This document shows positions 39,300-42,488 of a DNA stretch of 42,488 bases, in pieces. The position numbers and the translations under genes were made by a program. Below the pieces are notes generated by a model. It was not told the origin of the DNA. It saw only the letters and a program-made list of their open reading frames with translations, and made no database searches. How positions within the stretch are numbered: position 1 is the first letter of the stretch; each line of letters opens with the position of its first letter. Source of the stretch: Alphaproteobacteria bacterium (lineage in GTDB: Bacteria; Pseudomonadota; Alphaproteobacteria; UBA3830); assembly GCA_015062335.1 (NCBI GenBank), contig SUUU01000007.1, forward strand, positions 1 to 42,488, read 5' to 3'.

Positions 39300-40004
39300 A
39301 TGATTAACAGAATTCGATTACAGCCGCTGGTGTCACTTTGTGATCAAATTGTTTTTGGATATGAAGCCTTGTACAACAAAGGACAGCAAAAATTTTTTCC
39401 AAGTGCTTTGGATGTCATTCAATGTGTTTTTAAGCACGGGAAAACGCGTAGTAATTTTCAACTCTATGCAAATTTAACATCTCAAGATGTTGTCAGTCAC
39501 GAATTTGCTCGTGCGTTAATAGATACCATACACGGATTAAATATTTCCCCTCACAATATTGTTCTGGAAATTAGCGAAGAAACTAATCCAGATGTAATGC
39601 AAAAATCAATTGATGTTTTACAATTTCTCCGAAAAGCAGGGGTCAAAATAGCTTTAGATGATTTTGGAGTGCAGTATTCTTCGTTGGCTTACTTTCATGA
39701 TTTACCGGTAGATATCGTAAAAATTGACCAGCGTTTTGTTCAATCGGCTCCTGTCAACAATAAAGCAAAATCAATATTAAAATTTGCTGCAAATTTATCT
39801 CATGAATTTGGATGCAAAGTTGTTGCAGAAGGAATTGAGACAGAAACTCAATTGCAGTGCGCGTTAGAAGCAAAAATCGACATAGGGCAAGGATTTCTTT
39901 TTTCTCCTGTACGTAAAACAAAAGTCACCTCTCCATTTGCCAATCTGTGTGAATTTATTGCAGGAGCAATCAGAACGCCCTCTGCAGTAAGTTATTGCAT
40001 ATAG
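39300..40004 (+). CDS. Stand-alone EAL-domain cyclic-di-GMP phosphodiesterase
   Basis: A 234-residue protein made only of an EAL domain. The conserved residues are intact: GYEALYN (the EAL motif, residues about 20-26), LYANLTS (metal-binding Asn), LEISEE, ALDDFGVQYSSLAYF (the DDFG-x-x-x-SSL loop), VDIVKIDQRFV (catalytic Lys region KID), VVAEGIETETQ and GQGFLFSPV. Active c-di-GMP hydrolysis is therefore expected. It has no GGDEF, sensor or membrane domain. It lies 49 bases after mutL, with 84 bases before infA. Where c-di-GMP is made cannot be seen here. Confidence 0.92.
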   Translation: MINRIRLQPLVSLCDQIVFGYEALYNKGQQKFFPSALDVIQCVFKHGKTRSNFQLYANLTSQDVVSHEFARALIDTIHGLNISPHNIVLEISEETNPDVMQKSIDVLQFLRKAGVKIALDDFGVQYSSLAYFHDLPVDIVKIDQRFVQSAPVNNKAKSILKFAANLSHEFGCKVVAEGIETETQLQCALEAKIDIGQGFLFSPVRKTKVTSPFANLCEFIAGAIRTPSAVSYCI

Positions 40005-40088: not shown

Positions 40089-40307
40089 ATGGCAAAAGAG
40101 GATTTAATAGAGTTTTCCGGAGAAGTAATAGAAGTGTTGCCTAACGCAATGTTTCGAGTAAAACTGGAAAACGATCATGTGATTTTAGCACACACTTCAG
40201 GAAGGATGAAAAAAAACAGAATTCGTGTCCTTGCCGGAGATAAAGTCAATGTCGAAATGACTACATATGATTTTACCAAGGGTCGCATTACTTTCAGATC
40301 GAAGTAA
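40089..40307 (+). CDS. infA: Translation initiation factor IF-1
   Basis: A 72-residue single S1/OB-fold protein: [19 protein letters not shown], then [34 protein letters not shown] and a C-terminal [14 protein letters not shown]. This is a near-standard bacterial IF-1. It binds the A site of the 30S subunit during initiation. GAGGGGATTTT precedes the start. It is followed after 53 bases by the ferritin gene. Confidence 0.97.
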
Positions 40308-40360
40308 TATTCTTTTAACTTTTTGTTGAGATAATTGTATCAAAACAGAAGGAGAATCAG

Positions 40361-40870
40361 ATGGCTGTTGTCATTGGGAAAAGGGCTCATGAAGCTCTAA
40401 GCAAGTGTTTGACGGAGGAGTTTTGTGTGGCTTATGCTTATCTTTCGATGTCCTGTGTTTTTCGTGATATGGGATTACGAGGATGTGCGGATTGGTGTTT
40501 GAATCGTTATGAAGCTGTTCGTCAGGTTGGTTTGAAGATAATGCACCATTTGGAAGATAGGGGGGCAAAATTTAAATTAGCGGCGATTCCAGTTTTAAGA
40601 CAGGATTGGAGAGCGCCACTGCATATATTCGAAGAAGCTCAACGTCAAGAACAAAAATTATACGGATTAATTGCGACATCTTACGAATCTGCATTGGTAG
40701 ACAAGGATTATGTTTCTCAAGAATTTTTGTTATCTTTCATCAATAATCAAGGAAAAGTTGACTCTGAAATTTCGTTTTTGATTAATAGACTAAAAAGAAT
40801 GCAGTCTTCGGATTTAGGTATATTTAAATTCGATGATGAATTAGAGAGTTTGAAGCAAAGTAGTGTCTAA
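40361..40870 (+). CDS. Ferritin-like protein with degenerate ferroxidase centre
   Basis: A 169-residue four-helix-bundle protein that aligns without gaps to E. coli FtnA from its position 14 to 65. E17 (TEEFCV), Y24 and G38 equivalents are present, and so is E94 (QRQEQKLYG) and Q127 (FINNQG). But the iron ligands E50 and H53 both fall on valine (YEAVRQVGL), and E130 also falls on valine. Site A of the di-iron centre and part of site B should therefore not form. AGGAG precedes the start. The protein may bind iron poorly, store it via another route, or have another role. The C-terminal E helix is partly conserved (DDELESLK). Its stop overlaps the fni start by 8 bases. Alignment is from memory. 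Confidence 0.75.
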   Translation: MAVVIGKRAHEALSKCLTEEFCVAYAYLSMSCVFRDMGLRGCADWCLNRYEAVRQVGLKIMHHLEDRGAKFKLAAIPVLRQDWRAPLHIFEEAQRQEQKLYGLIATSYESALVDKDYVSQEFLLSFINNQGKVDSEISFLINRLKRMQSSDLGIFKFDDELESLKQSSV

Positions 40871-41879
40871 ATTGAAAGAGAGAAAAATTCAACATATTGC
40901 GTTATGTCCAGATCCGGCAAATCATTCGCTTAAAAGCAACGGATTTGAACAGTATAAATTTGAACATTGCGCATTGCCTGAATTAGATTTTGATTCAATA
41001 GATACGTCTGTAAGTTTTTTGGGAAAAACCCTGAGTCTACCTTTGATCATCTCTTCTCTAACTGGAGGATGTACAGAGGGGCAAGAAATTAACCGCAAGC
41101 TGGCTAAAGCTGCGCAGAGATACAAAATAGGATTTGCTGTAGGTAGTCAACGCGCTGCAATTGTCGATCGATCTTGCCAAAATACGTTTAATGTTCGAAA
41201 ATTTGCGCCAGATATTTTGCTTTTTGCAAACCTTGGAGCGATTCAGCTAAACTACGGATTCGCCATTGATGAATGTCAACGCGCTGTAGATATGATTGAA
41301 GCAGACGCTCTAATTCTGCATTTGAATCCATTACAAGAGATATTTCAACCAGAAGGAAATAAGAACTTTTCAGGACTGTTGAAAAAAATCGAAAAAATAT
41401 GCTCAAAACTATCATCACCTGTTGTTGTAAAAGAAGTTGGATATGGAATTAATTCATTAGTTGCTGAAAAACTGTTTCAAGCCGGGGTATCGGCTGTAGA
41501 TGTTAGTGGCAGCGGTTCAGTTTCATGGAGTAATGTAGAAACTGAGAGAAATCCAAACATACAAAAACGGTCTGCCGACATTTTTAAAGATTGGGGAATC
41601 ACTACCGCTCAAGCATTAAAAGATGTGACATTGCGTTGTCCAAATTCGGCGATCATTGCTGGAGGAGGAATTAAAACGGGGGTGGATGTCGCAAAAGCCA
41701 TAGCGATGGGAGCAACACTTTGTAGTAACGCCTCCGATTTTTTGAAAGCAGCGATGATGTCCGAACAAGAAGTTGACAAACTTAGCGAGTCAATTGAATT
41801 TGAACTTAAAGCAGCCATGTTCTGCATTAGCGCCAAGAACATCGCAGAATTGAGGAGAAAGTCACTATTTGTGGGGTAA
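40863..41879 (+). CDS. fni: Isopentenyl-diphosphate delta-isomerase, type 2
   Basis: Interconverts IPP and DMAPP for isoprenoids (undecaprenyl phosphate, quinones). The 338-residue FMN-dependent TIM-barrel enzyme shows RKIQHIALCP near the start, LPLIISSLTGGC (the S-x-MTGG segment, here SLTGG), FAVGSQRAAI, LHLNPLQEIFQPEGN (with the conserved Gln/Glu), VVVKEVGYGIN, VSGSGSVSWSNVE and GGGIKTGVDVAKAIAMGA. It starts with GTG at 40863, inside the last codons of the ferritin gene, so translation is probably coupled. Type 2 Idi needs reduced FMN and NADPH. Confidence 0.93.
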   Translation: MSKLKERKIQHIALCPDPANHSLKSNGFEQYKFEHCALPELDFDSIDTSVSFLGKTLSLPLIISSLTGGCTEGQEINRKLAKAAQRYKIGFAVGSQRAAIVDRSCQNTFNVRKFAPDILLFANLGAIQLNYGFAIDECQRAVDMIEADALILHLNPLQEIFQPEGNKNFSGLLKKIEKICSKLSSPVVVKEVGYGINSLVAEKLFQAGVSAVDVSGSGSVSWSNVETERNPNIQKRSADIFKDWGITTAQALKDVTLRCPNSAIIAGGGIKTGVDVAKAIAMGATLCSNASDFLKAAMMSEQEVDKLSESIEFELKAAMFCISAKNIAELRRKSLFVG

Positions 41880-41932: not shown

Positions 41933-41961
41933 GACATCAGTTGTTGCAGAAGGTGAATGAA

Positions 41962-42488
41962 ATGAAGAAGTTGTTGTCTTGTGTTTTAATGTTGGCTGCT
42001 GAGGCTGTTTTCTGTGATGAAGATGTTGGTACGACGCATAAGCGAGGGGCTTATGTTGGTATGGGATTAGTGTGCGCGAACGATAAATATGACCTTACTT
42101 TGAATCGTTTTCTTGATGTGGATGATGATTATAGCTTGATAAAGTATCAGAAAACCTCAAGAAATTATAGTGGGGAATTTTTTGTTGGATATCAGGTAGC
42201 TTCTCCTATTTTTGCCGCTGTTGAACTCGGTTGTACCTTAAATTCCAGGAGTGCTGAAAATTATTTTATCGATCCGGATGATTTGGGGCATGACGCTGTT
42301 TGTCGTATAAAATACGGGAATGATTTAAGCCTAAAGTTGAAAATTGGCAAAGTTTTTAAGTGGGATAGTCTTTGCCGTCAAATTACTCCGTACATTAAGC
42401 CTCTTGCGAAAGTCGAGAGGTTTGTGGTTTTTATGAAAGATAAAGTACTCAGATTTCATCAGAAGCAATTATCCAAATCTCAAATTAT
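41962..42488 (+). CDS. Outer-membrane beta-barrel-like protein, 3' truncated by window
   Basis: At least 175 residues, still open at the window end. The N-terminus MKKLLSCVLMLAAEAVFC is a signal sequence, with cleavage probably near residue 18. The mature part has GAYVGMGLVCANDKYDLTL, YSGEFFVGYQVASPIFAAVEL, LSLKLKIGKVFKWDS and ITPYIKPLAKVERF, alternating strands like small alphaproteobacterial surface barrels. AAGGTGA lies before the ATG. It differs in sequence from the barrel at 24763 but has a similar plan. The C-terminus, which would carry a terminal aromatic residue in a true barrel, is outside the window. Confidence 0.6.
   Translation, partial: MKKLLSCVLMLAAEAVFCDEDVGTTHKRGAYVGMGLVCANDKYDLTLNRFLDVDDDYSLIKYQKTSRNYSGEFFVGYQVASPIFAAVELGCTLNSRSAENYFIDPDDLGHDAVCRIKYGNDLSLKLKIGKVFKWDSLCRQITPYIKPLAKVERFVVFMKDKVLRFHQKQLSKSQI

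Follow-up and report, generated by a model that had tools for sequence, protein, structure and literature searches.

Ferritins are usually defined by their ferroxidase activity. In the window, meaning the whole stretch of 42,488 nucleotides analysed here, an open reading frame on the plus strand (40361-40870, ATG start, 169 aa) raises the question of what a ferritin does once ligands of its ferroxidase site are gone. A preliminary description of this locus, built on a hand alignment to E. coli FtnA, had proposed a ferritin that keeps its fold and lacks three of the residues that bind the two irons, so that its reaction should be crippled. The genome that carries it is small (0.86 Mb in 33 contigs, 96% complete).

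The encoded protein matches Pfam PF00210 over residues 11-147 (63.8 bits against a cut-off of 24.5; 2.1e-17), and a sequence search of the PDB returned Pyrococcus (archaeal) ferritin among the top matches (2.6e-19 to 4e-19). The rubrerythrin family PF02915 gives no match, either for this protein or anywhere in its genome. An AlphaFold2 model, computed as a monomer on 34 family sequences, reaches a mean pLDDT of 90.5 and contains the five ferritin helices (7-36, 40-66, 86-113, 117-147 and 151-167), that is, a four-helix bundle plus helix E. On superposition with E. coli FtnA (1EUM), residues 2-162 of FtnA pair with 5-165 of the model (161 residues, rmsd 1.3 A, Z 23.5), and the Z scores to TmFtn and EcFtnA are 23-24; together with the pLDDT, these scores show that the ferritin fold is kept, as proposed earlier. 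The structural register is gap-free with a constant offset of +3 and reproduces the hand alignment along with its anchors (Y27, G41 and D66-R67-G68 of the window protein at Y24, G38 and D63-T64-G65 of FtnA), which rules out misalignment as the cause of the missing ligands. The subunits probably still assemble into a homopolymeric 24-mer.

FtnA positions 17, 50, 53, 94, 127 and 130 are occupied in the window ferritin by E, V, V, E, Q and V. The three valines reported previously (V53, V56 and V133 at E50, H53 and E130 of FtnA) recur in both the sequence and the structural alignment, and the ligands said to be retained are indeed present (E20, E97 and Q130 at E17, E94 and Q127). The erosion goes further than was first described, as the C-site glutamates E49, E126 and E129 are replaced by Ala, Asn and Lys. 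A complete di-iron centre (E17, E50, H53, E94, Q127 and E130) is absent, and the protein is an Ftn homologue that is catalytically incomplete. Other carboxylates or histidines in the iron positions, which the preliminary description had named as evidence against its own reading, were looked for at 32 core-facing positions, picked from knowledge of the ferritin bundle and not from coordinates, and no new Asp, Glu or His relative to intact relatives was found at any of them; relocated ligands in the core are rejected on this basis. The coordinates of these and the other features of the locus are collected in Table 1.

Table 1. Features at the ferritin locus; positions are those of the window.
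Feature	Position	Strand	Basis or remark
infA (IF-1), precedes the ferritin gene in most family members	40089..40307	+	eIF-1a 1.5e-24
AAGGAG, Shine-Dalgarno-like sequence, 6 nt 5' of the ferritin ATG	40349..40354	+	read from sequence
Ferritin (Ftn-type) CDS, ferroxidase centre lost	40361..40870	+	ORF, PF00210, AlphaFold2 model, FtnA superposition
Codon of E20 (= FtnA E17), ligand kept	40418..40420	+	alignment
Codon of R49 (= FtnA H46), basic, a helical turn ahead of the dead site	40505..40507	+	alignment
Codon of A52 (= FtnA E49), C-site ligand lost	40514..40516	+	alignment
Codon of V53 (= FtnA E50), bridging ligand lost	40517..40519	+	alignment
Codon of V56 (= FtnA H53), A-site ligand lost	40526..40528	+	alignment
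WRAPLHIFEE, residues 83-92, start of helix C	40607..40636	+	near-invariant in family, site intact or not
Codon of E97 (= FtnA E94), ligand kept	40649..40651	+	alignment
Codon of Q130 (= FtnA Q127), kept	40748..40750	+	alignment
Codon of V133 (= FtnA E130), B-site ligand lost	40757..40759	+	alignment
KRMQSSD, residues 145-151, D-E turn	40793..40813	+	family consensus RKMQ[ST][ST]D
FDDE, residues 157-160, helix E	40829..40840	+	family consensus FDxE
fni, type 2 isopentenyl-diphosphate isomerase, follows the ferritin gene in most family members	40863..41879	+	TIGR02151 6.8e-118

Di-iron chemistry is well established and is the basis for expecting that catalysis is lost. Because of this and of the precedent of Bfr2 from Magnetospirillum gryphiswaldense, in which ferroxidase residues are mutated and the measured activity is low (PMC6529640), paired Fe(II) oxidation has in all likelihood been lost in the window ferritin, and the crippled reaction claimed at the outset is supported. 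Furthermore, FtnA positions 45, 48, 49 and 52, which correspond to the L-chain-like nucleation glutamates, carry N, E, A and Q in the window ferritin; the nucleation glutamates are not kept, and therefore even slow mineral storage is doubtful.

The window ferritin has orthologues in 37 further genomes of its family, a group of reduced Alphaproteobacteria from rumen and termite gut. Named relatives come from rumen, deer and termite guts and are metagenome-assembled 'Holosporaceae' or 'Alphaproteobacteria', with UBA3830 in the window's genus. All six ligands are kept in 4 of the 38 family copies (G013, G009, G014 and G024). These intact sisters are 48-50% identical to the window protein, carry the same invariant motifs and have infA and/or fni as neighbours where the contig allows, but they differ in retaining the six ligands plus the C-site acids and in having a pI of 5.4-5.9. 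Among the 33 full-length degenerate copies, E50, H53 and E130 are jointly absent from 29 (2 keep E50, 2 keep H53 and 1 keeps E130), whereas E17 is kept in 28, E94 in 28 and Q127 in 26. All eight class-level outgroups have an intact site. To obtain a base rate, 398 genomes from across the phylum were sampled: every FtnA-type ferritin examined keeps the six ligands, and only FtnB-type proteins are without them. Chance is excluded, since 33 full-length orthologues share the erosion and the site is intact in every outgroup, and the same orthologues, together with the purifying selection described below, rule out a sequencing error or a lone pseudogene. Judged from these sequences, degeneration is a trait of the whole family under purifying selection and not a peculiarity of the window gene. 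Reading frames are full-length in 37 of the 38 copies; the remaining one, a 34th degenerate copy (G033, L030), has an internal TAA stop. No ferritin was found in three family genomes (G018, G020 and G064), which, taken with this stop, suggests that some family members have lost the gene altogether.

A ferritin tree built without the ligand columns places the family ferritins in one clade (100/99), in which the earliest branches are the intact G013 and the g2 pair. FtnB pairs with FtnA (96/80) outside this clade, on a long branch, and branches leading to degenerate copies exceed intact ones in length. By parsimony, each ligand changed 3-4 times on this tree. Grouping all degenerate copies in a single clade is not rejected (p-AU 0.30), and several independent complete losses are thus not established. 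Partial states are found in G012, which is without E130 only, in G026 (without H53 and E130), in G032 (without E50 and E130) and in G063, where E50 and H53 are lost and E130 is kept. Because these states differ, as between G012 and G063, the sequences suggest that the dismantling of the site did not follow one order.

Pairwise dN/dS (Nei-Gojobori, pairs with unsaturated dS) ranges from 0.04 to 0.18 for pairs of degenerate copies; the two intact g2 copies, between which dS is high, give 0.024. Constraint on the degenerate genes is somewhat looser but clearly present, and the values therefore argue against gene decay. Column entropies in the degenerate copies place positions 50, 53 and 130 at the 77th-90th percentile of variability and positions 17, 94 and 127 at the 27th-33rd; therefore, the site as a whole is not drifting freely. 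Its charge has also changed, the net charge over nine metal-site positions going from -6/-7 in intact copies to between -3 and +2 in degenerate ones and the pI from 4.5-5.9 to 6.1-8.9, with E. coli FtnB as the exception, degenerate yet acidic. A Lys or Arg at FtnA position 46, 50, 53 or 130, all of which line the dead site, is present in 33 of 33 degenerate copies and in 0 of 14 others, a pattern partly shared by descent, as these copies are related and do not represent 33 independent events. In the window's genus the basic residue is at position 46 in 8 of 9 members, and outside it mostly at position 50 or 53; position 50 is Lys or Arg in 17 of the 33, in 16 of them together with E94. In the animal L-chain, the Lys at the E50-equivalent is salt-bridged to the E94-equivalent (K58-E103) (PMC2603009), and by analogy the same pairing, probably as a salt bridge, is possible in these 16 relatives.

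The shell of the protein has been conserved. The motifs WRAPLHIFEE, RKMQ-x-x-D and FDxEL are near-invariant across the family, and GKR (6-8), M37, L39, C42, K115-D116, M147-Q148, G153 and F157-D158 vary little or not at all, whether the copy is degenerate or intact; all these conserved residues mostly differ in the outgroups. Except for GKR and K115-D116, they lie at the beginning of helix C, in helix E and in the A-B and D-E turns, a region that in known ferritins is the four-fold end of the bundle. This patch could be a point of contact in the cage or a surface for binding. In the g5 copies G026 and G030 (L016 and L023), the D of RKMQ[ST][ST]D, invariant in the other copies, is replaced by Glu and WRAPLH by WRAPIH.

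The gene order infA-ftn-fni is conserved as well, and the window's ferritin gene is preceded by a good ribosome-binding site. An 8-base overlap between the ferritin gene and fni, previously regarded as unexpected, is present only if fni starts at GTG 40863, and a TTG start at 40872 would abolish it; such a junction is nevertheless ordinary, as relatives have GTGA-type overlaps or very short gaps. In rumen members of the window's genus (L104-L107, L109 and L110), infA is still located 5' of the ferritin gene and fni is no longer 3' of it. Elsewhere in the window, mutL is followed (39300-40004) by a stand-alone EAL-domain protein of the c-di-GMP phosphodiesterase family; one GGDEF protein accompanies it in this genome, so that c-di-GMP signalling seems to have persisted despite the very small genome size. 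The ORF at 41941-42486, which runs off the contig end, has no Pfam or NCBIfam match.

As for other iron genes, no second ferritin-superfamily gene was found in the window's genome, which at 96% completeness has a single PF00210 match and no rubrerythrin, and no FeoB was found there either. Rubrerythrin, Dps-like or Bfr-like genes are present in 27 of 34 genomes with a degenerate ferritin and in 0 of 4 with an intact one (Fisher p 0.004, a value that ignores relatedness, with two of the intact genomes only 59-75% complete); the other PF00210 genes of relatives are Dps-like or bacterioferritin-like and patchy in distribution. Compensation by other ferritin-superfamily genes is rejected as a general rule, as none was found in the window's genome. 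The superoxide dismutase of this genome is frameshifted in the assembly (G000 contig C26, L168, 573-1165, minus strand), with two overlapping frames, 869-1165 for the N-terminal and 573-917 for the C-terminal part, through either decay or assembly error. Neither cytochrome bd nor a haem-copper oxidase was found in 41 family genomes. This absence is in line with the state of Rs-D84, another reduced gut order of Alphaproteobacteria, for which a lack of respiration has been reported (PMC12306168). Loss of oxygen-driven iron oxidation is plausible in a family without terminal oxidases.

In the literature searched, FtnB and Bfr2 were the only ferroxidase-less prokaryotic ferritins that turned up. 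Enterobacterial FtnB (E. coli b1902, sequence taken from NC_000913) is, like the window protein, Ftn-type, with E49, E50 and H53 lost (S, N, Q) and E130 changed to D; the loss of E50 and H53 is common to the two (V, V in the window; N and Q or H in FtnB), but E94 is Y in FtnB and is kept in the window ferritin. FtnB is accompanied by working FtnA, Bfr and Dps and thus stands beside live ferritins, whereas the window ferritin is the only ferritin-superfamily gene found in its genome and groups with its intact sisters in a clade apart from FtnB. The animal L-chain is likewise a ferroxidase-dead subunit on a ferritin fold. However, it carries Lys at the E50-equivalent where the window protein has Val, with Arg four residues earlier, and the window protein has lost the nucleation glutamates, has no H-type partner that could be found and is not closely related. 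On the sequences, the resemblance of the window ferritin to FtnB and animal L-ferritin is best read as convergence. Bfr2 of M. gryphiswaldense is also an alphaproteobacterial ferritin-superfamily subunit with altered ferroxidase residues, but it binds haem and co-assembles with catalytic Bfr1, whereas the window protein is Ftn-type and alone. Sponge HdF2, an atypical invertebrate ferritin, has the ferritin fold and is predicted to have lost iron binding (PMC8395497), but it is eukaryotic and has conventional ferritins alongside. Ureaplasma ferritin was dropped as a parallel, as it is reported to be ferroxidase-active (PMC4515015).

We consider it rather probable that the gene encodes a non-haem ferritin cage subunit whose di-iron centre has been erased while its shell remains under selection, and which may hold iron loosely. 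In such a cage, Lys or Arg (R49 in the window protein) would neutralise the leftover E17 and E94, as the Lys-Glu pair does in animal L-chains, and oxygen-driven ferroxidation would be dispensable in cells without terminal oxidases. The cage would then act as an Fe(II) buffer in which iron is held loosely and its oxidation is uncatalysed; among roles this is the most likely one, hinted at by the Fe2+ reservoir proposed for Salmonella FtnB (PMC4450229). Against it, the part of the surface that is most conserved has no evident link to iron, and a non-iron role fits equally well. The main rival is a repurposed cage, in which iron handling is gone and one end of the bundle, with its family-specific surface, has a structural or binding role. 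Near-invariance of GKR, WRAPLHIFEE, RKMQxxD, FDxE and the like in degenerate and intact copies, and their difference in outgroups, would fit such a role, as would the loss of catalytic, C-site and nucleation residues alike in the window protein. Yet the patch predates the loss, being present in intact members, and may serve only cage packing; moreover, no partner is known and E17, E94 and Q127 are still mostly kept. We therefore regard repurposing as a serious but somewhat unlikely explanation.

Relaxed selection after a move to anaerobic, host-dependent life, with a gene of little function on its way out, would account for the ferritin-less genomes G018, G020 and G064, the internal stop in the G033 copy, the absence of terminal oxidases and the longer degenerate branches. 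It is nonetheless improbable given the dN/dS of 0.04-0.18, the 37 full-length frames, the conserved infA-ftn-fni order, the invariant motifs and the slow change at E17, E94 and Q127 beside the variable E50, H53 and E130. Still fainter is the prospect of an L-type subunit in a mixed cage, with the catalytic subunit encoded separately, as in animal H/L ferritins and in Bfr1/Bfr2 of M. gryphiswaldense (PMC6529640): the L-chain-like pairing of Lys or Arg at position 50 with E94 occurs in 16 of 33 copies, but co-assembly with a live subunit is rejected for the window's genome (96% complete), in which neither a PF00210 match beyond the single one nor a rubrerythrin was found, and the other PF00210 genes of relatives are of Dps-like or bacterioferritin-like type and patchy. 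Just as little weight is given to a relocated or mononuclear metal site that restores activity. It could draw on the persistence of E17, E94 and Q127 and on the new acidic or histidine residues H10, D44, H62, E65, E121, E136 and E162, but none of these is at a listed core-facing position and they are not common to the degenerate members.

To our knowledge, dead subunits such as FtnB and animal L-chains always stand beside live ones. The window's family has a dead ferritin that is apparently the sole ferritin of several species and is under purifying selection, with intact and half-lost sisters. Should the cage prove to be repurposed, a whole family's shell would have been freed from iron chemistry, with the sister genera holding the ancestral enzyme and the intermediates. 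The family thus offers a natural experiment on the role of a ferritin shell deprived of its enzyme, and it allows Fe(II)-only storage in anaerobes and the order in which a catalytic site is dismantled to be tested.
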